64,000 nt of DNA from Kiloniellales bacterium (lineage in GTDB: Bacteria; Pseudomonadota; Alphaproteobacteria; Kiloniellales; JAKSDN01): contig JANQLT010000211.1 in NCBI GenBank assembly GCA_028280455.1, positions 1-64,000 of the forward strand. Reading direction: 5' to 3'. This document shows, one piece after another, positions 3,216 to 59,703 of this stretch (within the stretch, counting starts at the first letter, position 1; the number at the start of each line of letters is the position of its first letter). The notes below the pieces were generated by a model that worked only from the letters and a program-made list of their open reading frames with translations, had not been told where the DNA came from and did no database searches. The position numbers and the translations under genes are program-made.

Positions 3216-4763
<1,548 letters not shown>

Positions 4764-5777: not shown

Positions 5778-6571
5778 GGGAAGAGGTCGCTCTCCGGGGG
5801 GCGGATGCTCTTGAGCGCTCCCTGGTCGCAGGCCTCCCAATCCAGGCCGCGAAGCAGCACCAGCGGCACGCCTTCGTCGGCCTGACCCATCAAGAGGCCG
5901 GCCGCGGCCGCGATCTCGTCGGCGAAGCCGGTGTCGGTGACCGCCAGGGGGCGGCCGTGCAGGTCCGTGCGACCGCGCAGATCTCGCACGGCCGCCGGCC
6001 CCGCGACGCCGATGGCATGGCCGACGTTGCCCAGGCGCCAGGCCCGCCCGATGCTGTCGCTCATGATGACGCCGAGGCGGCAGCCGAAACGCTCTTCCAG
6101 GGCGGCCCGCAGCCGCCGGCAGGACTCGTCCGGGTTCTCGGGAAGCAACAGCGCGACATCGCCACCGTCCGGGGCGGCCACGTTCGACTGATCGATTCCC
6201 GCGTTGGCCATGACGAAACCGAGGCGATGCCGAACGATGATCAAGCCGGGCCTCTTGCGCATCACGCTCTGGGATTCGGCCAGGATCAAGGTGACCAGGC
6301 GGGCGTCCTTGTCGCACTCCGCGGCCAGGCGCCGTGCTTCGTCCGTGACCGTCACCTCGTCGAGCCGAACCAGGCGGCCTTCCGCCTTCGAGACCACCTT
6401 CTGGGCCACCACGAGGAGGTCGCCCTCTTGGAGCGTCAGATTCGACGCCGAGAGCGCCGTCGAAAAAACCTCCGCCAGGTCGTCGCCGGCCTGGATCAGG
6501 GGAATGCCCGGAACGGCATGGAGGCAGAGGCTGCCCGTGTCGCGCTGCATCGCTGCGCCTTGTCCTCGCAA
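5774..6571 (-). CDS. cofE: Coenzyme F420-0:L-glutamate ligase
   Basis: A 265-residue CofE that adds glutamates to F420-0 using GTP. Visible family motifs are the VPGIPLIQAGDDL start (20-32), GDLLVVAQKVVSKAEGR (50-66), NAGIDQSN (123-130) and the DSIGRAWRLGNVGHAIG segment from 172. The protein ends after the CofE domain; the flavin reductase (nitroreductase-fold) domain that extends mycobacterial FbiB is absent. The start could be the first ATG or the one eight codons later. Seven bases separate it from the upstream oxidoreductase gene. Confidence 0.94.
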   Translation of the reverse strand: MRGQGAAMQRDTGSLCLHAVPGIPLIQAGDDLAEVFSTALSASNLTLQEGDLLVVAQKVVSKAEGRLVRLDEVTVTDEARRLAAECDKDARLVTLILAESQSVMRKRPGLIIVRHRLGFVMANAGIDQSNVAAPDGGDVALLLPENPDESCRRLRAALEERFGCRLGVIMSDSIGRAWRLGNVGHAIGVAGPAAVRDLRGRTDLHGRPLAVTDTGFADEIAAAAGLLMGQADEGVPLVLLRGLDWEACDQGALKSIRPPESDLFP

Positions 6572-6577
6572 GCCCGG

Positions 6578-7234
6578 CTAGCCGAGCCCGGTGATCCGGA
6601 GCCCGGCGCCGCCGGGCACCTTGTAGCGCCGGTTGATGGCGATCAGCACCGAGGTCATGGCCTCCGCCGCCACCGCATTGGCGAGCGGCCCGCCGTGCAG
6701 GCCGCGGAGACCAAGGCGCGTGGTCAGGTCGATCAGGCGCTCCCGGGCGTCCTTGTCGTCGCCGAAGACGAGGATGTCGCAACCCGGATCCCCCTCCGCG
6801 CCGAGCTTTTCCGCCGACAGGTTGTGGAAGGCGGTCACCAAGGCGATCTCCTCGCCGAGGCGCTCGCGCGCGGCCAGCGCGGCGCTGCCGGCCGGCGGGA
6901 GCTGGACCCGGCCGACCTTCGGCGGCATCAGCGGGACGGTGGTGTCGACCACCAGCTTGCCGGCGAGCCGGGGCCCGATCTCGTCGAGGATCGAAGCTTG
7001 ATTGGCGAAGGGCACCGTGACGACGACGATGTCGCCGAGCGCGGCCGCGGCGCTGTTGTCCGTCCCCCGCACCGAGGCATGCGGCATGTCCGCCAGCAGC
7101 GAGGCGGCGGCTTGCTCCGCCCTGGCGCGGTCGCGCGAGCCGATGACGACCTCCAGCCCGGCCCGGGCGCAGCGCCGCGCCAGGCCGCCGCCGAGCGCGC
7201 CGCTGCCGCCGACAATGGCGATGACGTCAGGCAT
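6578..7234 (-). CDS. npdG: NADPH-dependent F420 reductase (F420:NADP+ oxidoreductase), copy 1
   Basis: A 218-residue Fno/NpdG-type enzyme that moves hydride between NADP(H) and F420, here presumably making F420H2 from NADPH. The dinucleotide motif GGSGALGGGLARRCARAG is at 9-26, followed by GSRDRARAE for the NADP phosphate, then VVDTTVPLMPPKVG and a C-terminal MTSVLIAINRRYK typical of the family. AGGAA stands before the ATG. It is the first gene of the npdG-cofE-cofD operon and is divergent from the HutC-type regulator. A second copy lies at 53954-54649. Confidence 0.92.
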   Translation of the reverse strand: MPDVIAIVGGSGALGGGLARRCARAGLEVVIGSRDRARAEQAAASLLADMPHASVRGTDNSAAAALGDIVVVTVPFANQASILDEIGPRLAGKLVVDTTVPLMPPKVGRVQLPPAGSAALAARERLGEEIALVTAFHNLSAEKLGAEGDPGCDILVFGDDKDARERLIDLTTRLGLRGLHGGPLANAVAAEAMTSVLIAINRRYKVPGGAGLRITGLG

Positions 7235-26179: not shown

Positions 26180-26824
26180 ATGGCGATCGAACCAGCGAGC
26201 CGCATTCAGCCTGTCGTTCCGGTCAAGAGTCTCCGGACAGCCAAGAGCCGTCTCTCGAGCGTGTTGAGCGAATCGGAGCGCGCCAGCCTGGTTCTGGCCA
26301 TGCTGCGCTCTGTGTTGCGGTCGCTCCGGCGGGTCGAGGGCTTGCCGCCGCCGCTGGTGGTGACCTGCGATGCCGACGTCGAGGATGTGGCGCGAGCCTC
26401 TGGAGCCGGCATCTTGCGGGAGCCGAGCTCGTCGGGTTTGAACGCGGCCATGGATCTCGCGCTCGGCCATCTCGAAGCGACGGGATGCGACACCCTGCTT
26501 TACCTGCCGGCCGATATCCCTCAGGTCACGTCGAGCGAAATCGCGGCGCTCCTGGCGGCTCACGCCAGGAACAGACCGGCCGTCACCCTGGCGCCGTCCT
26601 GCGACGGCAGCGGCACGAACGCCCTGCTCGTGACGCCGCCCGGTGCCATGTCCTTTCATTTCGGCGCCCGCAGCTTCTCCGCCCATTGCGATGAAGCGCG
26701 AGCCAGGGGCCTGACCCCGCAGGTCGTCAGATTGGCGGGGATCGCCCGCGACGTCGATCGGCCGGAGCAGCTCGACGCCATAGCGGGCGTTCAGCGCCGA
26801 GGGGCTCTGGAGGCCGTTCCATGA
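26180..26824 (+). CDS. cofC: 2-phospho-L-lactate guanylyltransferase, F420 biosynthesis
   Basis: A 214-residue CofC/FbiD nucleotidyltransferase that activates a three-carbon phosphate (phospholactate, PEP or 3-phosphoglycerate, depending on the organism) with GTP for CofD. The NTP-binding start is VPVKSLRTAKSRLSSVLSESER, followed by VVTCDADVEDVA, GLNAAMDLAL and the metal-binding LYLPADIPQ. Which three-carbon precursor it prefers cannot be decided here. It overlaps fbiC by four bases (ATGA). A degenerate fragment of another cofC is at 54755-54928. Confidence 0.9.
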   Translation: MAIEPASRIQPVVPVKSLRTAKSRLSSVLSESERASLVLAMLRSVLRSLRRVEGLPPPLVVTCDADVEDVARASGAGILREPSSSGLNAAMDLALGHLEATGCDTLLYLPADIPQVTSSEIAALLAAHARNRPAVTLAPSCDGSGTNALLVTPPGAMSFHFGARSFSAHCDEARARGLTPQVVRLAGIARDVDRPEQLDAIAGVQRRGALEAVP

Positions 26825-29259
26825 CGGCCCAAACGCAGAAGATCTTGGCGAAGGCTGCAGATGGGCAAGCGCTCTCGGCCGCGGCGCTGCTTGTCCTCGC
26901 CGAGAGCGCGGAGACGGCCGAGCTGACCGAGGTGGCTGCCGCGCTCCGTGACCGGGGCCACGGCAGCATCGTCAGCTACTCGCGCAAGGTGTTCATCCCG
27001 CTGACCCAGCTCTGCCGAGATGTCTGCCACTATTGCACCTTCGCCAAGGCGCCGCGCGATCTGCGGCGGCCCTATCTGACGCCGGACGAGGCCGTCGCCA
27101 TTGCACAAGCCGGCGCCGAGGCCGGCTGCAAGGAAGCGCTCTTCACCCTGGGTGATAGACCGGAGTTGCGCTATCGGGCGGCCGCGGACGAGCTCTCGCG
27201 TCTGGGCTACGACACGACGATCGACTACCTGGCCGCCGTCGCCGAGCAGGTGCACCGCGAGACAGGCCTCTTGCCCCACCTGAATCCGGGCGTGATGAGC
27301 CGGGAGCAGTTGGCTCGATTGCGTCAGGTCTCGGTCTCCATGGGCCTGATGCTCGAATCCGCGTCCGACCGGCTCTGCGAACGCGGTGGTCCCCATTTCG
27401 GCAGCCCCGACAAGCGGCCTGCTCTGCGCCTCGACACTATCCGCCAGGCGGGAGCCCTGCGGATACCCTTCACGTCGGGAATCCTGATCGGCATCGGCGA
27501 GACCACGCGGGAACGCCTCGAAGCGCTGCTCCGACTGAGAGAGCTGCAGGACGAATTCGGGCATCTGCAAGAGATCATCATCCAGAACTTCCGTGCGAAG
27601 CCTGGCACGATCATGGCCAACGCGCCGGAGCCGAGCCTGGAGGATTTGCGCCGGACTATCGCGCTGGCCCGTCTGGTGTTCGGCCCCGAGATGACCATTC
27701 AAGCGCCGCCGAACCTCTCGCCGGGCGAGGAGGCGGCGTTGATCGCCACGGGCTTGAACGACTGGGGCGGCGTCTCGCCCGTAACGCGCGACCACGTGAA
27801 TCCGGAGCGTCCCTGGCCCCATCTCGACGCGCTGGCCCGCCGCACGGCGGCGGCAGGCAAGACGCTGACGGAGCGCCTGGCGATCTATCCCGCCTATGTG
27901 CGGGCCGCCGATGATTGGCTCGACCCGGCGATGCTCGTCGCCGTGCGGCGGGCGAGCGATGCGGCGGGCTTCACCCATGACGGTGACTGGTTTGCGGGGA
28001 CCGAGACGCCCCCGCCACGGCGGCGCGACATCGGCGGGCGAGGAGCCTTGGACGCGATTGTTGCGCGGGCGCTCGATGGCAAGGACCTCGGCGAGGACGA
28101 CGTCGTCCGGCTCTTCACGGCCCGCGGCAGCGCCGTGGAGGAGGTCTGCGAGGCTGCCGATGGGCTGCGGCGCAAGGCATGCGGCGACCGGGTCGGCTAC
28201 GTGGTCAACCGGAACATCAACTACACAAACGTCTGCACCTACAAATGCGGCTTTTGTGCCTTCTCAAAGGGACGCACGGCTGAGCATCTGCGGGGCCGGC
28301 CCTATCTGTTGGACTTGGAGGAGATCGCCCGCCGCACGGCAGAGGCCTGGGAGCGCGGTGCCACGGAGGTCTGCCTGCAGGGCGGCATCCATCCCGAATT
28401 CACGGGCGAGACCTATCTCGCCGTTTGTCGCGCGGTCAAGCAGGCCGCGCCCGATATCCACATCCACGCTTTCAGCCCTTTGGAGGTCCATCACGGATCA
28501 ACGACCCTGGGCCTGCCGGTGGCCGCATTCCTGGAGCGGCTGATGGATGTCGGCCTCGGCTCGCTGCCCGGCACCGCGGCGGAGATCCTTGACGACGAGG
28601 TGCGGGCGATCATCTGTCCCGACAAGCTCGACACCGGCACGTGGCTGCAGGTCATGGAGGCGGCCCACGGTCTTGGCTTGCGGACGACGGCGACGGTCAT
28701 GTTCGGCCATGTGGAGCGGGTGGAGCACTGGGCGCGCCATTTGCTGCGCCTGCGCGCGTTGCAGGCCCGCACCGGCGGCTTCACCGAGTTCGTGCCCTTG
28801 CCCTTCGTGCATATGGAAGCGCCGCTCTTCCTGAAGGGCCGCTGCAGGCGCGGGCCGACCTATCGCGAGGCGGTGCTCATGCACGCCGTGGCACGCCTCG
28901 CGTTGCATCCCTATCTCGACAACATCCAGACCTCCTGGGTTAAGATGGGCGGCGCGGGCGCGTCGGCCTGCTTGAGGGCGGGGGCCAACGACCTTGGCGG
29001 CACCTTGATGAACGAGATCATCACGCGGTCGGCCGGTGCGCGGCATGGCCAGGAGATGACGCCCGCGAGCATGGAGGCCACAGCCAGGACGCTGGACCGC
29101 CAGCCATTCCAACGGACAACGCTCTATGGCGAGGCCCCACAAGAGCGGCAGGACGCGGCGAAGACCGCCAAGGACCTCTTGCCGACCGGCAACAGGCCGG
29201 CGACCGGCCGGGACCGCAGCGACCTGCTCATGAAAGGGGCTGTCGGGGAGATCGCCTGA
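26821..29259 (+). CDS. fbiC: Bifunctional FO synthase (fused CofG-CofH)
   Basis: An 812-residue double radical-SAM enzyme making the deazaflavin FO from tyrosine and the riboflavin precursor 5-amino-6-ribitylamino-uracil. The CofG half has the cluster motif C65-x3-C69-x2-C72 (CRDVCHYC); the CofH half has C472-x3-C476-x2-C479 (CTYKCGFC). Both halves are full length, joined around residue 380-430. This fusion is the FbiC form. It is the last gene of the long operon and converges with the TAXI-TRAP permease 13 bases away. With cofC, cofD and cofE it completes F420 synthesis within the window. Confidence 0.95.
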   Translation: MTAQTQKILAKAADGQALSAAALLVLAESAETAELTEVAAALRDRGHGSIVSYSRKVFIPLTQLCRDVCHYCTFAKAPRDLRRPYLTPDEAVAIAQAGAEAGCKEALFTLGDRPELRYRAAADELSRLGYDTTIDYLAAVAEQVHRETGLLPHLNPGVMSREQLARLRQVSVSMGLMLESASDRLCERGGPHFGSPDKRPALRLDTIRQAGALRIPFTSGILIGIGETTRERLEALLRLRELQDEFGHLQEIIIQNFRAKPGTIMANAPEPSLEDLRRTIALARLVFGPEMTIQAPPNLSPGEEAALIATGLNDWGGVSPVTRDHVNPERPWPHLDALARRTAAAGKTLTERLAIYPAYVRAADDWLDPAMLVAVRRASDAAGFTHDGDWFAGTETPPPRRRDIGGRGALDAIVARALDGKDLGEDDVVRLFTARGSAVEEVCEAADGLRRKACGDRVGYVVNRNINYTNVCTYKCGFCAFSKGRTAEHLRGRPYLLDLEEIARRTAEAWERGATEVCLQGGIHPEFTGETYLAVCRAVKQAAPDIHIHAFSPLEVHHGSTTLGLPVAAFLERLMDVGLGSLPGTAAEILDDEVRAIICPDKLDTGTWLQVMEAAHGLGLRTTATVMFGHVERVEHWARHLLRLRALQARTGGFTEFVPLPFVHMEAPLFLKGRCRRGPTYREAVLMHAVARLALHPYLDNIQTSWVKMGGAGASACLRAGANDLGGTLMNEIITRSAGARHGQEMTPASMEATARTLDRQPFQRTTLYGEAPQERQDAAKTAKDLLPTGNRPATGRDRSDLLMKGAVGEIA

Positions 29260-47927: not shown

Positions 47928-49354
47928 AAACGATAGCGCAAAGCCTCGCCGAGTTCGCGTGCAGCCCGCTGAGCGAGGCTGGACTGGAGTCGGCACGTCG
48001 AATGCGAACCTATGCCCTCGACACACTGGCCGTGACGCTCGCGGGGACCCTGGCGCCCTCGAGCGCGCCGATGACGCGGGTGCTTCTCTCGGCCCACGGC
48101 ACGCCCGAGGCCACGATCCTGGCCGTCGGCAAGGTCACCTCCGCCTGGGATGCGGCGCTCGCCAACGGCACCTTCGCCCATGCCCTGGAGCTGGACGACG
48201 ATCATCGGGTCGGCGTGCTGCACCCGGGCGCGGTCGTGGTTCCGGCTGCGCTGGCGGCCGCCGAGGCCTCGAACGCATCGGGCCGGCGGTTCCTTCACGC
48301 GCTTCTCATCGGCTACGAGGTGGCCTGCCGCCTCGGCGAGGTCTTTCGAGGATCCCAGTTCGGTCACGGCGTTCACCCGACCGCCTTGTGTGGCGTGTTC
48401 GGCGCGGCGGCGGCGGCGGCCGTCGCCATGGCGCTGGATGAGGATGCCACTGTCCGTTCCTTGGGGATCGCCGGAACGCAGGCCTCCGGGCTGACCGAAT
48501 GGCGCGCGGACGGCTCCTGGATCAAGCGATTGCATCCCGGGCGCGCCGCGCAGAGCGGTGTGCTTGCCGCGCGGCTGGCGCGCGAGGGCTTCACCGGGCC
48601 GGCATCGGTCTTCGAGGGTCCCGGCGGCTTCTTCAATGCCTTCTCGTTCGGCGAGACCATCGACGTCGGTTCCATGACCCGACGCCTCGGCGAGGACTAC
48701 CGAGCCCTGGCGACGGCGATCAAGCCCTATCCCTGTTGTCGCTTCGAGCACGGGGCCATCGACCTGGCGATCGAAGCTTCGAACAGCGAGATCGCCCTCG
48801 ACGACGTGACGGCCGTGCGCGTGCGGCTCTATCGCACGGACGTGCTCTCCTATCACCAGCAGCCCAAGAACGTGGTCGATGCCCAGTTCAACGTTCCCTA
48901 CGCCGTCGCCGTTGCGCTGCTGCGCGGAGGGGTGAGCCTCGCCGACTTCACCGAAGAGGCGATAAGGGACGAAGAGGTCCTGGCTTTGTGCCGGCTGGTC
49001 GAGGTCGTCGAGGATCCGGACTACACGGCGCGCTATCCCGAGGACTACTGCGTCGAGTTGTGCCTGCGGCTCGAAGACGGCAGCGAGCATCGCTTCTTCA
49101 GCGAGTGCCCGAGCGGCGATCCGGAGGCGGCCCAGTACCGGTCCAACGGGACGCTCTTGCACGAGGAGGTCGAGCGGAAGGCCTTCTCCGTGCTCGGCGA
49201 CTGCGGGTTCGGCGACCACGCGGAGCCGCTTGCGGCCTGCGTTGCGGACTTGGACGACGCTCCGGACCTGCACTCTCTTTGCGCCATCGTCGGCGCTCCG
49301 GCGCAGGCAACCTGCCAAAGCCGTCGGCAGTCCACCTGGGAGACCGGAACATGA
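47924..49354 (+). CDS. MmgE/PrpD-family protein
   Basis: A 476-residue protein of the 2-methylcitrate dehydratase/cis-aconitate decarboxylase/iminodisuccinate epimerase family. The GTG overlaps the preceding stop. Typical segments are ANGTFAHALELDDDH, HGVHPTALCGVFGAAAA, and IKPYPCCRFEHGAIDLA. Family members do dehydration, decarboxylation or epimerisation on substituted di- and tricarboxylates; which applies here is unknown. Its stop overlaps the LLM gene (ATGA). Confidence 0.9.
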   Translation: MKTIAQSLAEFACSPLSEAGLESARRMRTYALDTLAVTLAGTLAPSSAPMTRVLLSAHGTPEATILAVGKVTSAWDAALANGTFAHALELDDDHRVGVLHPGAVVVPAALAAAEASNASGRRFLHALLIGYEVACRLGEVFRGSQFGHGVHPTALCGVFGAAAAAAVAMALDEDATVRSLGIAGTQASGLTEWRADGSWIKRLHPGRAAQSGVLAARLAREGFTGPASVFEGPGGFFNAFSFGETIDVGSMTRRLGEDYRALATAIKPYPCCRFEHGAIDLAIEASNSEIALDDVTAVRVRLYRTDVLSYHQQPKNVVDAQFNVPYAVAVALLRGGVSLADFTEEAIRDEEVLALCRLVEVVEDPDYTARYPEDYCVELCLRLEDGSEHRFFSECPSGDPEAAQYRSNGTLLHEEVERKAFSVLGDCGFGDHAEPLAACVADLDDAPDLHSLCAIVGAPAQATCQSRRQSTWETGT

Positions 49355-50343
49355 AGGTTGGCCTCTACATCACGACGCAATTCACGCCCGAAGTCGATGT
49401 CGCGGCGAGCCGATCCGACATGATCGAGCAGGTGAGGCTGGCGCGGCAGAGCGGCTTCTCGTCCCTCTGGGTGCCGCATCACTACCTGACACAGCCGATG
49501 CAGATGCTGGCACCGATTCCCATGCTCGCCTATCTCGCCCGCGAGGCGGAGGGCATGACGATCGGGCCGAACATTCTCGTCATGCCCCTGCTCAATCCGG
49601 TCCACGTCGCCGAGGACGCCATCACGCTCGACCTGTTGTCGGGCGGGCGCTACGTGCTGGGTATCGGAATCGGCTATCGCGAGGCGGAGTTCAACACCTT
49701 CAACGTGCCGCTCAAGGAGCGCGTCCAGCGCTTTACCGAGAGCATCGAGATCATGCGTCGGCTCTGGAGCGAGGACCGCGTCACGTACCACGGCAAGATC
49801 TTCAACATCGAGGACCTCGGAATCGGCTTGAAGCCGACTCGCCCGGGCGGGCCGCCCATCTGGGTCGCGGCGGTCGTCGACGCGGCGGTCAAGCGCGCGG
49901 CAAGGATCGGCGATGCCTGGCTGATCACCAACTTCGCGCATCTGAAGGCCCTCGAGCCGCAGATGAAGCTCTATCGGGATACGCTCCGAGAGGCGGACAA
50001 GCCGCTCCCGGCGGAGATCCCGATCACGCGCGAATGCTACATCGGGCCGACGCGCGCCAAGGCGATGGAGGAGTGCAAGGCCGCGCTCGAATACAAATAC
50101 GGCGCCTACTCGTCATGGGGGCTCGACAAGCAGTCCAAGGGCGCGGAGTCGTTCGACCAGACCTTCGAGGATTTCGCCAAGGACCGCTTCATCATCGGCG
50201 ACAAGTCCTATGTCGCCGAGGAGATCCAACGCTACAGCGAGACCCTTGGCGTCAACCACTTCCTGATGCGCGTCCAATGGCCCGGCTTGGAGCAGGACAA
50301 AGTCCTGCGGACGATTTCTACGCTCGGCGAGATATTCGCATAG
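49351..50343 (+). CDS. LLM-class, probably F420-dependent oxidoreductase (copy 2)
   Basis: A 330-residue luciferase-like protein. Segments: KVGLYITTQFTPEVDVA, SLWVPHHYLTQPMQMLAP, GGRYVLGIGIGYREAEFNTF, and KPTRPGGPPIWVAAVVDAAV with ARIGDAWLI. It differs clearly from copy 1 (13002) in length and sequence, so it should act on a different step or substrate. The operon includes an F420:NADP oxidoreductase downstream, supporting F420 as cofactor; FMN cannot be excluded. Confidence 0.85.
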   Translation: MKVGLYITTQFTPEVDVAASRSDMIEQVRLARQSGFSSLWVPHHYLTQPMQMLAPIPMLAYLAREAEGMTIGPNILVMPLLNPVHVAEDAITLDLLSGGRYVLGIGIGYREAEFNTFNVPLKERVQRFTESIEIMRRLWSEDRVTYHGKIFNIEDLGIGLKPTRPGGPPIWVAAVVDAAVKRAARIGDAWLITNFAHLKALEPQMKLYRDTLREADKPLPAEIPITRECYIGPTRAKAMEECKAALEYKYGAYSSWGLDKQSKGAESFDQTFEDFAKDRFIIGDKSYVAEEIQRYSETLGVNHFLMRVQWPGLEQDKVLRTISTLGEIFA

Positions 50344-50401
50344 CTTCGGCAATGAAACTCAGCAAGTGATCGTCACCAACAACAGAGGAGGAGCAAGGGT
50401 T

Positions 50402-51436
50402 ATGTTTTGGAAATCGAAACGCTTTGGCATGAAAGCAGGGCTCGTGGGCGTCGCGGCTCTGCTCTTGACCGCTTCGACCAGCATTCCGGTTTTTGCGGCG
50501 GATCTCACGGCGGCTTCGCTTCGACTGAAGTGGCTGCCACAGGCGCAGTTCATCGGCTACTACGTCGCCAAGGAGAAAGGCTGGTACGAGGAGGAAGGGA
50601 TCGATCTCACGATCAATCCCGGCGGCCCGAACATCATTGCGGAGAACATGGTGGGCTCCGGGGCCGATACCTTCGGTCACGGCGGCGGTGCCGCTTCCCT
50701 GCTTCGGGCCCGCGCCAAGGGGCTGCCGATTCTGGGCATCGGCATGATGTTCCAGGAGACGCCCTACCGCTTGGTCGCTCTCGAGGAATCCGGGATCAAG
50801 AAGTTCTCGGACCTGAAGGGCAAGACCGTCTCGACCTGGTTCTCCGGCCCGCAGTTCATCGTCCAGGGTATGTTGAAGAGGAACGGCATCCCGCTCGATG
50901 AAGTCAAGGTGGAGGCGCAGGCGAACAGCATGGTCCCCTTTCTCGAGGGCAAGGTCGACGTGGCGACGGTCACCGTCTACAACGAAGCCCTGGTCTTGAA
51001 GCGGAAGGGCGTCGAGCCCGCCACTGTCTTCAACCCGTCCGAGCTGGGTGTGAACCTTCCGAACGAATCGCTCATCGTCGGCGAACAGGTCGTGAAGGAC
51101 AATCCTAAGCTCATCGAGGGTTTCCTGAACGCGAGCTTGCGTGGCTGGAGCTACGCGCTGACCAATCCGGATGAAGCGGTCGACATCTTGCTCAGCGTCG
51201 TCCCGACCGCCGACCGGACCGAGCAGAAGGAGCAGCTCGAGCAGCTTGGGCCCCTGATCACCTATGGCGTGGCGGGGCAGAAGGGAATCGGCTACATCGA
51301 CACCAAGCAACTGGACTTCACAAACGAGCTGCTCGTCGAGTCCGGTGTCCTCGATGCGCCGGTCGATATCCCGAGCTCCATCGTCCCTCGCTTCTGGGAA
51401 GCCGTTCCGGAGGAGTACAAAGTCATAAGCAACTAG
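50402..51436 (+). CDS. NMT1/THI5-type ABC transporter substrate-binding protein
   Basis: A 344-residue binding protein with a Sec signal peptide (hydrophobic stretch 12-27, cleavage after PVFA at 32). The mature N-terminus LRLKWLPQAQFIGYYVAKEKG is the hallmark of the group that includes thiamine-pyrimidine, nitrate/taurine and riboflavin-type binders. GAGGAGGAG precedes the ATG at 50402. Relatives beside dihydropyrimidinase genes are often predicted pyrimidine or hydantoin binders. It is followed by a hairpin and then its ATPase and two permeases. Confidence 0.9.
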   Translation: MFWKSKRFGMKAGLVGVAALLLTASTSIPVFAADLTAASLRLKWLPQAQFIGYYVAKEKGWYEEEGIDLTINPGGPNIIAENMVGSGADTFGHGGGAASLLRARAKGLPILGIGMMFQETPYRLVALEESGIKKFSDLKGKTVSTWFSGPQFIVQGMLKRNGIPLDEVKVEAQANSMVPFLEGKVDVATVTVYNEALVLKRKGVEPATVFNPSELGVNLPNESLIVGEQVVKDNPKLIEGFLNASLRGWSYALTNPDEAVDILLSVVPTADRTEQKEQLEQLGPLITYGVAGQKGIGYIDTKQLDFTNELLVESGVLDAPVDIPSSIVPRFWEAVPEEYKVISN

Positions 51437-51449
51437 AATGACGGAGACG

Positions 51450-51490
51450 GGCGCGTGTTCCCGCCACCATCGGTGGCAGGAGCACGCGCC
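51450..51490 (+). promoter_or_regulatory. Long intercistronic hairpin after the NMT1-type binding protein gene
   Basis: A 19-position stem (51450-51468 with 51472-51490) with a three-base loop ATC: 17 Watson-Crick pairs, one T-G wobble and one mismatch. It begins 13 bases after the binding-protein stop. No T-run follows. This also argues against translation of the ATPase starting upstream at 51438 inside the hairpin. Confidence 0.7.
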
Positions 51491-51515
51491 GACGGCAGCG
51501 GAGGACGGATGCGTT

Positions 51516-52340
51516 GTGACCCCGAAAATCTGTGTGAAGAACCTCTCCAAGCACTTCACGGCCGGAGTCTCGACGGTTCAGACTCTGGACAACGTGAATT
51601 TGCGGGTGAACGACGGCGAATTCGTCACCTTGGTCGGCCCAAGCGGCTGCGGAAAGAGCACGCTCTTCAACATCATCGTCGGTCTGCTGCCACCGGACGA
51701 GGGCCTGCTCCTGATCGATGGAGAGCAGCAGCCGCATGATCATCTCCTGGGGCAGGTCGCGTTCATGCCTCAGCGGGACATGCTGCTGCCCTGGCGCACG
51801 GTTCTAGACAACGCGATCCTCGCGGCCGAGATCGACGGCGTAGCGAGGGCTACGGCCCGGCAACGGGCCATGGACTCGCTCGACCGCTTTGGCCTTGGCG
51901 GCTTCGAGAGTCACTACCCGAGTCAGCTTTCCGGGGGAATGCGCCAGCGCGTGGCGCTCATGCGGACCTTCATGTTCGACCGCGAGATCATGCTGCTCGA
52001 CGAGCCCTTCGGGGCCTTGGACGCCTTGACTCGCGCCCTGATGCAGCGCTGGCTGTTGGAAGTGTGGGAAGGCGAGAAGCGCACGGTCCTGTTCATAACG
52101 CATGACATCGACGAGGCGATCTATCTCGGGGACCGCGTGCTCGTCATGTCGGCTCGGCCGGGCCACATCAAGCTCGACAAGGAGGTCGCCTTGGCGCGCC
52201 CGCGGGCACCGGACATCATCACGCGACCGGAGTTCGTCGAGCTGAAGCGGGAGCTTCTGGCGACGATCGAGGATGAGAGCCTCAAGGCCTTCGCGGCGAT
52301 GAACAGATCGGTCTCGGACAAGGAGGCGGGCGGGCGATGA
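51516..52340 (+). CDS. ABC transporter ATPase, nitrate/taurine type
   Basis: A 274-residue ATPase. The GTG at 51516 (VTPKICVKNLSKHF) is preferred since GGAGGA lies upstream and the domain starts there; an ATG at 51438 would run through the hairpin. Walker A is VGPSGCGKST, the Q-loop is AFMPQRDMLLPW, signature [15 protein letters not shown], Walker B IMLLDEPFGALDALT, switch ITHDIDEAIYL: all typical of TauB/SsuB/NrtD. Its stop overlaps the first permease start (ATGA). Confidence 0.92.
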   Translation: MTPKICVKNLSKHFTAGVSTVQTLDNVNLRVNDGEFVTLVGPSGCGKSTLFNIIVGLLPPDEGLLLIDGEQQPHDHLLGQVAFMPQRDMLLPWRTVLDNAILAAEIDGVARATARQRAMDSLDRFGLGGFESHYPSQLSGGMRQRVALMRTFMFDREIMLLDEPFGALDALTRALMQRWLLEVWEGEKRTVLFITHDIDEAIYLGDRVLVMSARPGHIKLDKEVALARPRAPDIITRPEFVELKRELLATIEDESLKAFAAMNRSVSDKEAGGR

Positions 52341-53098
52341 GCCGGCGCAGTTCGATCGGGCGCTTCACCGCGCAGCTCTTCGCCTTGCTGGCCATCTTCG
52401 TCGCTTGGGAGTGGTCAGTCTGGCTGTTCGAGATATCGCACGACAAGCTGCCGCCGCTGAGTGTCGTCTTGTCGACCATGTGGTTCGATCGCGCGCCTCT
52501 TGCGGCTGCCGTCGGGACAACCCTTCTCGAAGCCGTGCTCGGGCTCATGGCCGGCACGGCCACGGGCGTCGTGAGCGGGATCGCCTTCTCGCGCTCTCGG
52601 CTTCTCGAGCGGATGTTCCTGCCCTATTTCGTGGCGTCCCAAGCCATCCCCATCATCGCGTTCGGCGCCATAATCATCATGTGGTTCGGAAACGGGATCG
52701 CCTCGAAGGTGATCATCGCCCTCTACCTGAGCTTCTTTCCGGTCGCGGTGAACACGCTGCGCGGCATCCGCTCGGTGGGCGAGGGCGAGATCGGCCTGCT
52801 ACGCAGTTTCGGTGCGAGCCCGACGGCAATCCTGTTCAAGCTGCAATTGCCCGCCGCCCTGCCGTCGATCATGACGGCCGTGCGCCTCGGGGCGAGCCTA
52901 GCCTTGGTCGGCGCCATTGTCGGCGAGTGGTTCGGCGCGAGTCAGGGGCTCGGCGTCGTGCTTCTCATGGCCATGTTCGACTACCGGATTCCGCAGCTCT
53001 GGGCCGGCATTCTGCTTACCGGACTGACCGGCGTCAGCCTCTATGCGGCGATCGTCTTCCTGCACAAGAGAATCGCTTGGTGGCAGGTGGAGGCTTGA
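52337..53098 (+). CDS. ABC transporter permease (first)
   Basis: A 253-residue inner-membrane permease with about six membrane segments. The EAA-type cytoplasmic loop is LLRSFGASPTAILFKLQLPAALPSI; PIIAFGAIIIMWFGNGIASK is also usual in TauC/SsuC relatives. Coupled to the ATPase by ATGA, and followed six bases later by a second permease, suggesting a heterodimeric channel. Confidence 0.9.
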   Translation: MSRRSSIGRFTAQLFALLAIFVAWEWSVWLFEISHDKLPPLSVVLSTMWFDRAPLAAAVGTTLLEAVLGLMAGTATGVVSGIAFSRSRLLERMFLPYFVASQAIPIIAFGAIIIMWFGNGIASKVIIALYLSFFPVAVNTLRGIRSVGEGEIGLLRSFGASPTAILFKLQLPAALPSIMTAVRLGASLALVGAIVGEWFGASQGLGVVLLMAMFDYRIPQLWAGILLTGLTGVSLYAAIVFLHKRIAWWQVEA

Positions 53099-53104
53099 GA
53101 TCCC

Positions 53105-53908
53105 ATGTCGGCTCGGCCCTTGCCTAGATCTCTGCCCGAAGGCGCGCCGAATGGCATCGGCCGGGTCGGCCGCCTGCTCTTGCTCTACTGGCCGCCCATC
53201 TTGGCCGCCGTGCTGCTCATTGCCGTCTGGGAGCTGGCGGTCTGGTGGTTCCAGCTACCGAACTTTGTCCTGCCGACGCCGCGAGAGATCATCCTCGTCA
53301 GTCTGGAGGATCCGCGGACCTTGCTGCAGGACACCGCGACGACGGTGGGCGAGGCGGTCAGCGGCTACATCGCCGGCTCCCTGTTCGGTCTGCTCCTGGC
53401 GATCCTGTTCGTCACTTGGCCGAGCGTCGAGCGTTGTCTGCTGCCGTTCTATGTCACGATCAACTCCGTGCCGATGATTGCCTATGGCCCGCTCGCCATC
53501 ATCTGGTTCGGGGTCGGGCCCGCATCGAAGGTCGTGCTGATCTTCTTGGCGGTCAGCTATACCGTTCTCATCAATGCGGTAGCGGGCTTGAGAAGCTGCG
53601 ATCCCGTGGCCATCGATCTGCTGCGCAGCTTTGGCGCGAGCAACCGAACCATCCTGGTCAAGCTTCGGATGCCGGCTTCTTTGCCCTGGATCTTCTCCGG
53701 CCTCCGGGTCGCGGTGGTTCACGCCATGATCCTGGCGGTCGTTCTTGAGATGCTCGGGGCGAACTCCGGCCTGGGATGGAGCATCTACAAGGCGACCCAA
53801 ATGATGAGCTTCGTGGAAGCCTGGGTCGCGGTGGGCGCGTCCGTCGTGGTCAGCCTGATCATCTACACGATCGTGACGCGCATAGGGAAACGCGTGGCCT
53901 GGTGGTAG
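53105..53908 (+). CDS. ABC transporter permease (second)
   Basis: A 267-residue paralogue of the first permease, with the loop LLRSFGASNRTILVKLRMPASLPWI and IAYGPLAIIWFGVGPASKVV. The two likely pair. Most TauC-type systems use one permease as a homodimer; two permease genes are typical of the predicted pyrimidine/riboflavin-precursor subgroup. Confidence 0.9.
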   Translation: MSARPLPRSLPEGAPNGIGRVGRLLLLYWPPILAAVLLIAVWELAVWWFQLPNFVLPTPREIILVSLEDPRTLLQDTATTVGEAVSGYIAGSLFGLLLAILFVTWPSVERCLLPFYVTINSVPMIAYGPLAIIWFGVGPASKVVLIFLAVSYTVLINAVAGLRSCDPVAIDLLRSFGASNRTILVKLRMPASLPWIFSGLRVAVVHAMILAVVLEMLGANSGLGWSIYKATQMMSFVEAWVAVGASVVVSLIIYTIVTRIGKRVAWW

Positions 53909-53953: not shown

Positions 53954-54649
53954 ATGACACGGCCGACTGAGAGGCGACTGAAGATTGCCGTCATCGGCGG
54001 GACCGGTGACTTGGGACGTGGCCTTGCCATGCGGTGGGCGCGTGCCGGCCACGATATCACGATTGGGTCCCGCGACGGCGCACGGGCGGCAGAGGTCGCG
54101 AATCGCCTCAATGCCTTGGCTGACACGACGACCATCGGTGGCATGGCAAATACCGACGCAGCCGGGGCCGCGGAGCTCGTTGCCTTGACGGTCCCCTACG
54201 CCAGTCACGGCGCTATGCTCGACGATATCGCGCCGCATCTGCAGGGCAAGATCCTGATCGACGTCACCGTGCCGCTCGTGCCGCCCAAGGTTCGCACGGT
54301 CATCTTGCCGCCGGAAGGCTCAGCCGCGAAAGCCGCGCAGGAGCGCTTGGGTGACGGCGTCAAGGTCGTCTCCGCCTTCCAGAACATCGCCGCCGCGCAC
54401 TTGAGCGACCTGGATCACGCGATCGACTGCGACGTGTTGGTTTGCGGCAACGACAAGGCGGCCCGTGAGCTGGTCATCGCTCTGGCGTCGGACGCGGGCA
54501 TGAAAGGATGGCATGCCGGGCGGATCGCCAATTCGGCCGTTGCCGAAGCGATGACGTCGGCCCTGATCTTCATCAATGGGCACTACAAGATCAACGGCGC
54601 CGGTGTGCGGATTACCGGCAGCGTGGGTGAAGCCGAGACCGCGGATTGA
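53954..54649 (+). CDS. npdG: NADPH-dependent F420 reductase (F420:NADP+ oxidoreductase), copy 2
   Basis: A 231-residue enzyme with the dinucleotide motif VIGGTGDLGRGLAMRWARAG and GSRDGARAAE, VTVPLVPPKVRTV, and a C-terminal MTSALIFINGHYK-type block, parallel to copy 1. It lies 45 bases after the permease and would supply F420H2 to the second LLM enzyme. The two copies share motif order throughout but differ at many positions, so they are not a recent duplication. Confidence 0.92.
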   Translation: MTRPTERRLKIAVIGGTGDLGRGLAMRWARAGHDITIGSRDGARAAEVANRLNALADTTTIGGMANTDAAGAAELVALTVPYASHGAMLDDIAPHLQGKILIDVTVPLVPPKVRTVILPPEGSAAKAAQERLGDGVKVVSAFQNIAAAHLSDLDHAIDCDVLVCGNDKAARELVIALASDAGMKGWHAGRIANSAVAEAMTSALIFINGHYKINGAGVRITGSVGEAETAD

Positions 54650-54754
54650 CGCATAAAGGGCGATTTCGGGAATGACCGGCGGATGGCTTGCCGAGCATGC
54701 CGGGGCCGGCTTTGCGTTCGGGATTTTGGGCCAAGCTAGGGCCGTGCCGCTATC

Positions 54755-54928
54755 GTGATTGCCGCCATCATCCCCTTCAAGAACGCCATGCGGGCCAAAG
54801 GTCGATTGGCCCCGCTGTTGGAGGGCTCGGAGCGGGCCGGCCCCGTGCACGCGATGCTTGGTGACGTGCTCGACGCTCTCACCGGCCGAACACCCTGTCA
54901 GCGGCGGGGACCTATCGACGATGGGTGA
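54755..54928 (+). pseudogene. Truncated cofC remnant
   Basis: From the GTG at 54755 a 57-codon frame reads VIAAIIPFKNAMRAKGRLAPLL then EGSERAGPVHAMLGDVLDALTGR, the N-terminal nucleotide-binding part of CofC/FbiD (P-x-K-x6-K-x-R-L-x-x-L, then E-R). It then loses similarity and stops at 54926-54928. The NTP-site continuation, the later motifs and the LPxD metal motif are missing, and no rest of the gene is visible before leuD. It does not closely match the intact cofC at 26180. It looks like the leftover of a second F420 gene set. The preceding 105 bases show no gene. Confidence 0.65.
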
Positions 54929-55007
54929 GGCAGTTCAGGGGGCAGCGCCTAGTCAGGACTCTGCGGTTCAGTCTTCCAACGGGCGGCAGGCCACGGCCTC
55001 GATGCCC

Positions 55008-55661
55008 TCAGCTCTGCCGGCCGTCCGCCGCCGCATTGCCGGCTAGGGCCGGCCGGAGAGTCCAGGGCAGCTTCGAGCCGTGGGCGTCCTCGAAGGCTTC
55101 GATCTCCTCGATGGCCTTCAAGGTCATCTCGATCTCCGAGGCGCCCTCGAGCAGTGCCTGCTGCCGGTAGGGGTCGATGGTGAAGGACCAGCGGCGGCCG
55201 TCTTCCGACCTGATGCTCTGCTCGGCGAGGTCGATGGTCGCCGTCGCGCCGGCCCGGCGCTGCGCTTCGTCGCTCAGCGCCGCCAACAGAGCCTCGTCGG
55301 CGACGATGGCGAGCAGGCCGTTCTTGCTGCAGTTGTTGTAGAAGATGTCACCGAAGCTCGGCGCCATGACGGCGCGGAAGCCGTAGTCGGCGAGGGCCCA
55401 AACGGCGTGCTCGCGCGAGGAGCCGCAGCCGAAGTTCGGGCCCGCGAGCAGGATCGTTCCTTGCCGATAGGAGTCCCGGTTGAGGATGAAGGCGGGCCGC
55501 TCCTTGCCCGCGTCGTCGTATCGTAGGTCGTGGAACAGGAGGCTGCCGTAGCCCTGCTTGCGGGCTCGATGCAGGAAGCGCGCGGGGATGATCTGGTCCG
55601 TGTCGACGTTGGCGGCGACGTAGGGCACCAGGAGGCCCTGATGGCGTCGAAAAGCTCGCAT
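55008..55661 (-). CDS. leuD: 3-isopropylmalate dehydratase small subunit-like
   Basis: A 217-residue aconitase-family swivel subunit. The start at 55661 (MRAFRRHQGLLVPYVAANVDTDQIIP region) fits the usual LeuD N-terminus; ATGs at 55673 and 55691 overlap leuC. Conserved are NVDTDQIIPARFL, GPNFGCGSSREHAVWAL, and FGDIFYNNCSKNGLL. It follows leuC with one base between. No leuB, leuA or regulator is close by. Confidence 0.92.
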   Translation of the reverse strand: MRAFRRHQGLLVPYVAANVDTDQIIPARFLHRARKQGYGSLLFHDLRYDDAGKERPAFILNRDSYRQGTILLAGPNFGCGSSREHAVWALADYGFRAVMAPSFGDIFYNNCSKNGLLAIVADEALLAALSDEAQRRAGATATIDLAEQSIRSEDGRRWSFTIDPYRQQALLEGASEIEMTLKAIEEIEAFEDAHGSKLPWTLRPALAGNAAADGRQS

Positions 55662-55662
55662 G

Positions 55663-57060
55663 TCACGCCCCATAGCCGAGCTTGCGGACATCCGTCAGCC
55701 GCCCGGTGATGGCGGCCGCTGCGGCCATCGGCGGGCTCACGAGGTGCGTGCGGGCCTCGGGCCCCTGCCGGCCGGCGAAGTTCCGGTTGGAGGTCGAGGC
55801 GCAGCGCTCTCCCGGCGGCACGCGATCGCCGTTCATCGCCACGCACATGGAGCAGCCCGGCTGCCGCCACTCGAACCCGGCCGCGCGGAAGATCCGGTCC
55901 AGGCCTTCGGCCTCGGCCTGCCGCTTCACCTCCCCGGATCCGGGGACGACGATCGCCGGCACGCTGGCCCGGCGTCCCTTGGCGATCTCGGCGGCGGCGC
56001 GCAGGTCCTCGATGCGGCTGTTGGTGCAGGAGCCGATGAAGACGCGGTCGATGGCCAGCTCGCTCACCGCCGCGCCGGCCCGCAAGCCCATGTAGGCAAG
56101 GGCCTTTTCGGCCGCCTGCCGGCGCACGGGGTCGGCTTCCAGCCGCGGTTCGGGTATCGCCTGGGAGATCGGCATGGCCTGCTCCGGCGAGGTGCCCCAG
56201 GTCACGATCGGCTCGATCGTCCCGCCGTCGAGGGCGACCTCGCGGTCGAAAACGGCGTCGGGGTCGCTGCGCAGCGCCCGCCAATCTTCGACGGCCTGCG
56301 CCCAGCTCTCGCCCGACGGTGCCAGCGGCCGGCCCTCGAGATAGGCGAAGGTCTTGTCGTCCGGCGCGACGAGCCCGCTCCGGGCCCCGGCCTCGATGGT
56401 CATGTTGCAGATCGTCAGCCGCCCTTCGATGGACAGCGCGGCGAGGACGTCGCCGCCGTATTCGATGGCATAGCCGGTCCCGCCCTCCGTGCCGATCCGC
56501 CGGATGACCTCGAGCACGACGTCCTTGGCCGTGACGCCCGGCCCCAGCGCGCCGTCGATGGTGATCCGCATCTGCTTGGGCTTGGCCTGCCAGATGGTCT
56601 GGGTGGCCAGCACGTGGGCGACTTCGGAGGTGCCGATGCCGAAGGCGAGCGCCCCCAGCGCGCCGTGGGACGCGGTGTGGCTGTCGCCGCAGACCAGGAC
56701 CGTGCCGGGCAGGGTGAAGCCCAGCTCCGGCCCGATGACGTGCACGATGCCCTGCCGAGGGTCGCCGAAGCCGTAGGCGGCGAAGTCCGACTTGCGCGCG
56801 TTGTCGAGCAGCCGATGGGTCATCTCGGCCAAGGTGGGGTCCTGCGCCGACAGGGCGCCGACCGTGTTCACGTAGTGGTCGGCGCTGCCCAGGGTGAGGT
56901 CCGGTCTGCGGACCTTGAGGCCGAGCTCTTCGATGGCATCGAAGGCTTGGGCCGTGGCGTCGTGCACCAGGTGCCTGTCGACAAAGAGCAGCGTGTGCCC
57001 GTCGGGCCGCGTCGTGATGCTATGGGCGCTCCAGATCTTGTCGAACAGGGTGGCCGGCAT
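55663..57060 (-). CDS. leuC: 3-isopropylmalate dehydratase large subunit-like
   Basis: A 465-residue [4Fe-4S] dehydratase of the bacterial LeuC length class. Motifs: GIVHVIGPELGFTLPGTVLV, CGDSHTASHGALGALAFGIG, cluster cysteines in FIGSCTNSRIEDL and PGCSMCVAMN, and SNRNFAGRQG. AGGAGA precedes the ATG. With LeuD it isomerises 2- to 3-isopropylmalate in leucine synthesis, but the setting at the end of a Dpp transporter operon leaves open that this pair hydrates another alkylmalate in catabolism. Confidence 0.92.
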   Translation of the reverse strand: MPATLFDKIWSAHSITTRPDGHTLLFVDRHLVHDATAQAFDAIEELGLKVRRPDLTLGSADHYVNTVGALSAQDPTLAEMTHRLLDNARKSDFAAYGFGDPRQGIVHVIGPELGFTLPGTVLVCGDSHTASHGALGALAFGIGTSEVAHVLATQTIWQAKPKQMRITIDGALGPGVTAKDVVLEVIRRIGTEGGTGYAIEYGGDVLAALSIEGRLTICNMTIEAGARSGLVAPDDKTFAYLEGRPLAPSGESWAQAVEDWRALRSDPDAVFDREVALDGGTIEPIVTWGTSPEQAMPISQAIPEPRLEADPVRRQAAEKALAYMGLRAGAAVSELAIDRVFIGSCTNSRIEDLRAAAEIAKGRRASVPAIVVPGSGEVKRQAEAEGLDRIFRAAGFEWRQPGCSMCVAMNGDRVPPGERCASTSNRNFAGRQGPEARTHLVSPPMAAAAAITGRLTDVRKLGYGA

Positions 57061-57100
57061 CTCGTCTCCTCGTCCTGGAAGAGCGTCCTCGGTGTTCGCC

Positions 57101-57898
57101 TCACGCCGCGTCGCTCTCGCTGTCCCAAACCTTCTCCGGCATCGGCAGGCCCTCGAAGGTCTCCGCTCCGAGCGGTCCGTCCGGGGCGATGTCCATGCGC
57201 TCGAGCGTCCACATGAGCTGGCGGGCGTGCTGGCCGCTGTGCCAGGCCGTGCGCTCCAGGAACTGGTGGAGGCTCTGCTTGCCGTAGTAGACCTGCGCGG
57301 TCCTCGACCAATCGGCCTCGCGCCCCGGGCCCTCGAACCAGTCGTTGAGGCGCCTCGCGACATGGCCGCCGTAGCCCGCCAGCCCAGCGATGGACTGCAT
57401 CTCCGGGGGCGGCAGCCGGTAGTAGGCCTCGTAGACCAGCGGGATGCCCTCCTCGTGCTCAACGAAGGCGTCGATGATGTTGTAGATGTGGTAGACGAGG
57501 TCGGCGTAGCTGCGCGGCCGGTTCGGCAAGTGGGTCTGCAGGCTGTCCGGCGGAAGCTGGCGCAGGAAGCGGTCGCTGCCCGCCATGATCGCCTCGAGGC
57601 GGCGGTGCAGCTCTTCGGGAGGCAGGATGTTCGCCTTGCCCCACGCGATGCCGACGAGCTTGGCCACGTCGCCGGGTATCTGGCCGTTCGCCCAGGCGTC
57701 GCCGCGCACGACGATCGGCACCTGGCGCAGCCCGAAGCGGGCCAGCTCGTCGAGCGCCGTCTCGTCCTCGAGCACGTTGCGCGAGACGAAGGCGATGCCG
57801 TGCTCGGTGAGGAACTCCTTGGTCCGGAGACAGCTCGTGCAGCCGGTCTGCCAATAGACGTAGATCTCGTCCGCGCTGTCCGGGGCTTGTAGGGTCAT
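57101..57898 (-). CDS. Glutaredoxin-like domain fused to a DinB-family domain
   Basis: A 265-residue two-domain protein. Residues 1-80 are a glutaredoxin fold with active site TGCTSCLRTKEFL and the cis-proline in RQVPIVV. Residues about 100-250 form a four-helix DinB/YfiT-like domain with the metal-type histidines in YADLVYHIYNIIDAF and LERTAWHSGQHARQLMW. The DinB superfamily includes thiol-dependent transferases and isomerases (mycothiol, bacillithiol, maleylpyruvate isomerase), so a thiol cofactor role is suggested. GGAGGAGG precedes the ATG. Operon partners are an amidase and leuCD. Confidence 0.8.
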   Translation of the reverse strand: MTLQAPDSADEIYVYWQTGCTSCLRTKEFLTEHGIAFVSRNVLEDETALDELARFGLRQVPIVVRGDAWANGQIPGDVAKLVGIAWGKANILPPEELHRRLEAIMAGSDRFLRQLPPDSLQTHLPNRPRSYADLVYHIYNIIDAFVEHEEGIPLVYEAYYRLPPPEMQSIAGLAGYGGHVARRLNDWFEGPGREADWSRTAQVYYGKQSLHQFLERTAWHSGQHARQLMWTLERMDIAPDGPLGAETFEGLPMPEKVWDSESDAA

Positions 57899-57937
57899 CG
57901 GCTTTCCTCCTCCTTCGCTTGACGGCTTCGCGGCGCG

Positions 57938-58582
57938 CTAGGCCGCCGCCCGCGCGGCGATCGCGTCGAACTGCGCGATGACCTCCGCCTTGCCCACCAC
58001 GTCGCCGTACTTGGCGTTGATGTCGAAGAGATTGGCGTCGTGCGGGTCGGCGTGGCGGTCGCCGACGCATTCGCGCGGCACGATCACATGGTAGCCGTAC
58101 TGCAGGCCGTCGACCGCGGTGGCGCGCACGCAGCCGCTCGTCGAGCAGCCGATCAGGACCAGGGTGTCGGCGTTCATTGCCTTGAGCGTCGCGACCAGGG
58201 AGGTGCCGAAGAAGCAGCTCGGGTAGCTCTTGACGATCACCAGCTCGCTTTCCAGCGGCGTCAGCGCCTCGTCGATCTCGGTCAGCGGCTCGCCCGGCAC
58301 CAGCTTGCGCAGGGACGGGACCTTCTTGAGGAAGAGCCCGCCGTCGATGCCGGAGGGGTGGTAGATCACCTTCGTGTAGATTACCGGGACCTGCGCCCGG
58401 CGGGCGGCGGACAAGAGCTCGACGCTCTCCGAGACCGCTGAGACCACGCCATCGGCGTAGAACGGCGAGCCCTCCGTCGTGTAGGCCTTCATGAAATCGA
58501 TCACGACGACGGCCGGCCGCTCGCCGAAGCCGACCTTGCCGTCGAACACGCCGGCATAGTTGCTCTCGAGGTTTTCGCTCAC
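57938..58582 (-). CDS. Isochorismatase-fold cysteine hydrolase, N-carbamoylsarcosine-amidase-like
   Basis: A 214-residue hydrolase. The GTG at 58582 ([11 protein letters not shown]) has AAGGAGG nicely spaced and overlaps the ATPase stop by four bases (GTGA). The catalytic triad of the fold appears as Asp in VVVIDFMKAY, Lys in VIVKSYPSCFFGTSL, and Cys in GCSTSGCVRATAVD; the KSYPSCFFGT segment is typical of N-carbamoylsarcosine amidase relatives. It would release ammonia and CO2 from an N-carbamoyl compound, linking to the ureide theme, but other amides are possible. Confidence 0.85.
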   Translation of the reverse strand: MSENLESNYAGVFDGKVGFGERPAVVVIDFMKAYTTEGSPFYADGVVSAVSESVELLSAARRAQVPVIYTKVIYHPSGIDGGLFLKKVPSLRKLVPGEPLTEIDEALTPLESELVIVKSYPSCFFGTSLVATLKAMNADTLVLIGCSTSGCVRATAVDGLQYGYHVIVPRECVGDRHADPHDANLFDINAKYGDVVGKAEVIAQFDAIAARAAA

Positions 58583-59703
58583 GAGTGCCTCCTTGACTGT
58601 CCGGCCGCGAAGGGCGCGCTGTCCCGAGCCTCCGCGCCGTTCGGATCCAGTGGGAAATGACAGGCCGCGAAGTGGCCGTTGCCGTCGTCGGCCAGCGGCG
58701 GCTCGCTGTCGGTGCAGCGGCTCGGCACGACCACGTCCTTGGACAGGGCCGTTGTCGCGACCCCGCCGGCGGCGGCGACCAGCCGCGCCTTGAAACAGCG
58801 CGGGTGGAAGCGGCAACCGCCGGGCAGGGCGGTCGCCGAGCCGATCTCGCCGTAGAGCGCAATGCGCTTGCGCTGCCGCTCCGCGCGCAGGTTGGGCAGT
58901 GGCACCGCCGACAGCAGCGAGGCGCTGTAGGGGTGCCGCGGCGCGGCATAGAGACGCTCGCGCGGCGCCGTCTCGACGATCTTGCCGAGGTACATCACGG
59001 CCACGCGCTCGGAGATGTGCCGCACGACGGCGAGGTCGTGGGCGATGAAGATGTAGGTGACGCCGGACTGGCGCTGCAGGTCGCGCAGCAGGTTGAGGAT
59101 CTGCGCCTGGATCGAGACGTCGAGCGCGGAGACCGGCTCGTCGAGGATCAGCAGCTTGGGATCGAGGGCCATCGCGCGGGCGATGCCGATGCGCTGGCGC
59201 TGGCCGCCGGAGAACTCGTGCGGGTAGCGCTCGGCCATGGCCGGGGAGAGGCCGACCCATTCGAGGATCTCGGCGGTGCGGCGGGCGATGCCGGAGCGCT
59301 CCGCGCCGTGGACCAGCATCGGCTCGGCGACGATGGCGCCGACCTTCATGCGCGGGTCGAGCGAGCCGTAGGGGTCCTGGAAGACCATCTGCATCTCGTG
59401 GCGCAGCTTGCGCATCCGTCCCTGGGCCAGGCCGGTGATGTCGCGGCCGTCGAAGACGATGCGTCCGGCGGAGGGGTCCAGCAGGCGGATCAAGAGACGG
59501 CCCAGCGTGCTCTTGCCGGATCCCGTCTCGCCGACGATGCCCAGCGTCTCGCCGCGGCGGACCGAGAAGCTGACCTTGTCGACGGCGCGCACCTCGGGCC
59601 GGCTGCGCCGGAACAGCAGGCCGCGCCCGCCGAAGACCTTGCTGAGGTCGTCGGCCTGCAACAGGGTCTCGTGCTCGCCCGTGCTCCGCAGGTCCGCGTT
59701 CAT
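58579..59703 (-). CDS. Oligopeptide-type ABC transporter ATPase (DppF-like)
   Basis: A 374-residue ATPase. Walker A is [15 protein letters not shown], signature [15 protein letters not shown], Walker [16 protein letters not shown]. The C-terminal oligopeptide-transport extension has the cysteine-containing [12 protein letters not shown] and a second Cys before HFPLDPNG. It overlaps DppD by ATGA and the amidase by GTGA. Substrates of the family include peptides, opines, nickel complexes and small amides. Confidence 0.9.

Follow-up and report, generated by a model that had tools for sequence, protein, structure and literature searches.

The window, i.e., the whole 64,000-nucleotide stretch of DNA analyzed here, carries on its plus strand a 57-codon open reading frame (54755-54928, with a GTG start at 54755 and a TGA stop at 54928) that a sequence-only reading had taken for a truncated cofC next to a second F420:NADP oxidoreductase gene. 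The features surrounding this frame are as follows.

49345-50343, plus strand: luciferase-like (LLM) oxidoreductase, head of the npdG2 gene run (PF00296, E 9.6e-61; the frame is longer, and the start codon within it is assumed)
50366-53908, plus strand: NMT1-type ABC transporter genes (binding protein, ATPase, and two permeases) from the LLM gene to npdG2 (PF09084 at 50366; PF00528 at 52337)
53954-54649, plus strand: npdG2, intact NADPH-dependent F420 reductase (TIGR01915, 211.6 bits; npdG tree)
54755-54886, plus strand: cofC remnant, N-terminal 44 codons (2-phospho-L-lactate guanylyltransferase family; PF01983, TIGR03552, and 21-22 identities over 44-45 residues to the five nearest CofC proteins)
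54887-55007, no strand: junction interval, with no CofC similarity in any frame among the tblastn matches listed and none by blastn to the leuD side of genome G021
55008-55691, minus strand: leuD-like gene, first of an unrelated block across the junction (PF00694, E 1.6e-30; 77% identical to G021 C345)

The score of npdG2 lies well over the TIGR01915 equivalog cut-off of 149.8 bits, which places the gene among NpdG/Fno proteins, and npdG2 is the last intact gene of a same-strand run consisting of the LLM oxidoreductase, the NMT1-type binding protein, the ABC ATPase, and the two permeases. The ATPase at 51438 and the permease at 53105 were named from their own sequences, and the best NCBIfam model for the LLM gene (49441-50340) was TIGR03619 (F420-dependent LLM) with 150.3 bits, which is below its cut-off of 166.9. 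An npdG gene also stands beside an NMT1-type ABC transporter in an Anaerolineae MAG (L067), whose ATPase, binding protein, and permease are 44%, 32%, and 34% identical, respectively, to the neighbors of npdG2. The GTG codon of the 57-codon frame follows the npdG2 stop by 105 bp. To the right of the junction, the opposite strand encodes leuD, leuC, a glutaredoxin-DinB protein, an isochorismatase, and an oligopeptide-type transporter.

Profile searches bore out the assignment of the frame to cofC. PF01983 aligned residues 3 to 44 with profile positions 2 to 43 of 217 (E 4.2e-7; 29.8 bits against a gathering cut-off of 22), and TIGR03552 aligned residues 4 to 44 with positions 2 to 42 of 196 (E 9.3e-9). 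The frame thus belongs to the N-terminal nucleotide-binding region of CofC as these two models describe it, whereas its TIGR03552 score of 35.2 bits is far from the 105 bits set for a full-length (equivalog) member. The same site was recovered from six-frame searches of the whole 5.94-Mb genome, at E 1.9e-5 with PF01983 and at E 1.2e-7 with a profile built from seven CofC proteins. Besides, our own HMM, run on all six-frame reading frames of at least 25 amino acids in the window, matched only cofC1 and the fragment at E 1e-3. The similarity extends past the motif that had been noticed by eye, through a helix ending in GDVLDAL, and stops at about 54886-54889, so that the final ~13 codons of the frame have no CofC similarity.

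The likeness to CofC/FbiD, the 2-phospho-L-lactate (PEP, 3PG) guanylyltransferase, is confined to these N-terminal 44 residues (PxK...AKxRL...R...AMLxDVLxAL), whereas the remaining ~150 residues, including the invariant acidic ones, are absent. Indeed, when 19 CofC proteins were compared by tblastn with 54601-55100, the matches listed contained only chance-level pieces of anything after the first 44 to 46 residues, in any frame. The claim that the frame breaks off before the metal site was correct as well: D107, D186, and D188 (L046 numbering), which are acidic and invariant in all seven aligned intact CofC proteins and which, as in FbiD, would bind the metal, are all missing. We infer from the loss of these invariant residues that the fragment cannot be a working guanylyltransferase. 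A review gives two catalytic Mg2+ ions for CofC/FbiD (PMC8498797). What survives here is the first fifth of a cofC gene, an ordinary gene remnant.

We compared the fragment with intact CofC proteins with respect to kinship and decay. The five proteins most identical to it are those of L046 (22/44), L065 (22/45), and L072, L045, and L039 (21/44 each), all from the phylogenetic group of npdG2 described below, followed by L005 from the host's own order (21/45) and by cofC1 of the window, L047, and L043 (19/44 each). The fragment therefore appears closest to the CofC proteins of the npdG2 group, by small margins over a short piece of 44 codons that cannot carry a firm tree; given these small differences, a shared origin of the fragment and npdG2 is suggested mainly by their position. 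In a leave-one-out HMM comparison of the start regions of 23 intact CofC proteins, the fragment scored 48.6 bits, versus 60.9 to 71.8 for the nine group members with cofC, and three distant intact proteins scored as low or lower (L068, 48.4; L066, 42.0; L070, 30.2). Of 14 columns invariant among the nine group CofC proteins, 12 are kept in the fragment, and one that is lost is an L-to-P change inside a helix. The lower score and this change would fit mild decay, although the score may instead reflect plain divergence.

The other F420 genes of the window lie in two places.

4815-5744, minus strand: cofD, one match in its own genome (TIGR01819, 280.8 bits)
5774-6571, minus strand: cofE, one match in its own genome (TIGR01916, 266 bits)
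6578-7234, minus strand: npdG1, intact, same type as in other genomes of the order (TIGR01915, 174.5 bits; npdG tree)
26180-26824, plus strand: cofC1, intact (TIGR03552, 155.5 bits; cut-off 105)
26821-29259, plus strand: cofGH (FO synthase) (NF006687, 1152.7 bits; cut-off 1018)

As had been stated from the letters alone, cofC1, 28 kb from the fragment, is intact and clearly different from it, the two having fewer than half of the 44 residues in common (see the identities above). The rest of the second cofC was not found elsewhere in the assembly, either by the six-frame PF01983 search or with the seven-row CofC profile. Other CofC matches in the genome were C152 and C127 (E 0.01) with PF01983, and C152 and C24 (E 0.0019) with the seven-row profile; those of C127 and C24 are weak, and C152 was rejected as a second CofC, being a MocA-like cytidylyltransferase (named by eye). 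Judging from this gene inventory, F420 synthesis in the genome would rest on cofC1, cofGH, cofD, and cofE. Between npdG1-cofE-cofD (4815-7234, minus strand) and cofC1-cofGH (26180-29259, plus strand) lie 19 kb, the split falling between cofD and cofC. Neither cofC1 nor cofGH of the window took a firm position in the trees of CofC and cofGH.

A scan of genome contigs with npdG2 yielded 34 loci, and the npdG tree comprised 40 rows. npdG2 was classified, with moderate support (86/88), into a group of 12 rows from Rhodobacteraceae, Rhodospirillaceae, Tepidamorphus, other Alphaproteobacteria, and some Gammaproteobacteria, and npdG1 clustered, at a good support of 96/95, with genomes from the host's order. 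The AU test rejected a clade uniting npdG1 and npdG2 (p-AU 0.00086). From this separate placement and the AU rejection, npdG1 and npdG2 are judged to be of different origins and not recent duplicates of each other, so that the proposal of different donors for the two islands stands as to npdG. A homologue of npdG2 at E 1e-40 or better occurs in 4 of 60 other genomes of the order, none above 55% identity, and no mobile source was found among plasmids, where the 33 records with relatives all showed less than 60% identity.

The gene order of these relatives agrees with the expectation that an npdG-cofC pair should be found at this place. Among the 11 other rows of the npdG2 group, nine have a same-strand cofC downstream of npdG, in two cases directly (L043 and L046) and in seven after cofE and cofD; of the remaining two, L040 has its cofC upstream and L042 ends inside cofE. 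cofGH follows cofC at eight of the nine loci, the ninth (L041) ending before cofGH. In the two direct cases, 37 and 241 bp separate the npdG stop from the start of CofC homology, compared with 115 bp in the window. These two npdG-cofC-cofGH loci, from Rhodospirillaceae bacterium BH24 (L043) and Rhodobacteraceae bacterium SJ247 (L046), carry an npdG 68 to 70% identical to npdG2, but they differ from the window in that cofC is of full length (TIGR03552, 130.4 and 146.9 bits) and is followed by cofGH. The same gene families also form npdG-cofE-cofD-cofC-cofGH operons (L039, L065, and the order-mates G040, G034, G015, and G027). The order-mates, whose npdG is of the npdG1 type, have the five F420 genes in one row, whereas the window has them in three places, i.e., at 4.8 to 7.2 kb (minus strand), at 26.2 to 29.3 kb (plus strand), and, as npdG2 with the cut cofC, at 54 kb (plus strand).

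The leuD side of the junction was delimited by G021, a genome of the same order. A G021 contig is collinear by blastn with 55007-59115 of the window at 84.8% DNA identity, up to its own end at 59115, and the match stops at 55007, the end of leuD. Beyond that point, the G021 contig encodes an iron-type ABC transporter (named from sequence) and other genes that have no close copy in the genome of the window, in which the G021 DNA left of leuD matched only pieces of 66 to 73%. The G021 contig may come from another organism, G021 being listed as 10% contaminated, and this does not affect the position of the break. Since CofC similarity ends at 54886 and synteny with G021 ends at 55007, the joint of the two blocks lies in the 120 bases between them. 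Third-position GC was 0.797 in npdG2, 0.841 in the fragment, 0.890 in leuD, and 0.908 to 0.958 in seven genes from 57101 rightwards (the gene at 15537 and leuC were left out of the comparison). The joint showed no useful repeat, no tRNA, and no other scar, and deletion and illegitimate recombination are therefore indistinguishable. The joint DNA gave two kinds of match in its own genome, both taken as chance: one of 82% on C169, inside an ftsY-like frame (named by eye), and 25-base matches on other contigs, which in the cases inspected fall within a dispersed palindromic repeat. This repeat is up to ~130 bp long, with copies ~84 to 97% alike on several contigs (L144, L145, L146, L147, and L148).

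The fragment is very probably the dead 5' remnant of a second cofC, belonging to a separately acquired operon, whose remainder was lost by a deletion or recombination joint to the leuD/leuC/opp block. A second operon of the type npdG-(cofE-cofD-)cofC-cofGH would have been acquired separately from the first set, and the DNA with npdG2 would then have been joined to the leuD/leuC/opp block between 54886 and 55007, removing ~150 codons of cofC and whatever followed. npdG2 would have been left intact behind the LLM oxidoreductase and the ABC transporter, with a cofC remnant that makes no working enzyme. This reading is supported directly by the homology of the fragment, its truncation, the absence of the remainder from the assembly, the distinct origins of the npdG genes, and the synteny break at 55007; what the operon formerly contained, what kind of event it was, and when it took place are inferred. 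The second island would, as suggested earlier, once have had F420 genes of its own, of which only npdG2 and 44 cofC codons remain; that it had a whole set may be surmised.

That suggestion further held that the genes were lost after the first set had become available. Such a course, in which two F420 sets functioned side by side for a time until the second eroded because one sufficed, is a variant of the main explanation in cause and timing, and we regard it as possible but doubtful. A complete set of cofC1, cofGH, cofD, and cofE is indeed present, and npdG2 is the sole intact gene of the second, as redundancy would have it; however, a single cut at the synteny break accounts for the loss without selection, and no decayed second cofD or cofE was found in the genome. 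Truncation of cofC is supported; as the cut falls at the synteny break, loss at a recombination or deletion joint explains it just as well as redundancy does.

The coincidence of the joint with the synteny break and with a change in base composition is also what would be seen if two contigs had been falsely joined inside cofC while the organism itself retained, after npdG2, a second cofC that is intact and perhaps also a cofGH. The assembly is in draft form (241 contigs, contamination 4.93%), and the same joint was found in no other genome, npdG2 homologues being as few and as distant in the order as given above. A false join, however, would usually leave the missing 3' part of cofC on another contig, and it was not found on any other contig of the assembly, so we hold an assembly artefact to be improbable. 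It is hardly conceivable that the similarity is due to chance or that the frame encodes a functional small protein of 57 residues: it does have a GTG start and no internal stops, but the E values of 1e-7 to 1e-9 in single-protein scans speak against chance, and the same short form occurs at none of the loci searched. A dead remnant left by the joint to the leuD block remains our preferred explanation.

If so, one lineage would have received two F420 operons of different ancestry. It is conceivable, although we propose this only tentatively, that the second was stripped to npdG2, kept as a dedicated reductase for the adjoining LLM oxidoreductase and ABC transporter while the biosynthetic genes were shed, and that the other was split between cofD and cofC. 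The Rhodospirillaceae MAG BH24 has two F420 loci (L040 and L043), arranged as cofD-cofE-cofC-cofGH-npdG and npdG-cofC-cofGH with cofC of full length in both, and it is the natural comparison for the window. A review describes, in general terms, how F420 genes have spread horizontally in bacteria (PMC8498797). In the literature on F420, cofC, transfer, loss, and pseudogenes, no report of such a cofC remnant was found among the papers listed, as is to be expected for a minor annotation detail; a further search retrieved only general works. The locus adds one more trace of how F420 genes were passed horizontally and lost among Proteobacteria; a single genome here carries two npdG genes that differ in origin, and annotators are warned that no second cofC should be counted.

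The DNA between guaA (3216-4763) and leuD (55008), i.e., 4815-54928, looks accessory. Neither its guaA side nor its leuD side gave a clean empty site, and none of the window's accessory genes had a close copy downstream of guaA in five relatives (one of them, L133, covering only 2.9 kb), the only matches there being of the generic ABC ATPase kind (26 to 33%, in L132). Two further leuD-like genes occur in the genome (G000:C233 and G000:C169), 48% and 44% identical to the leuD at 55008, so that the leuD/leuC pair at 55008-57000, next to the fragment, probably does not serve as the housekeeping copy. The region 4815-54928 contains F420 genes, LLM oxidoreductases, molybdenum hydroxylases, hydantoinases, a formamidase-like gene, and several transporters, and its third-position GC is mostly below that of the flanks.
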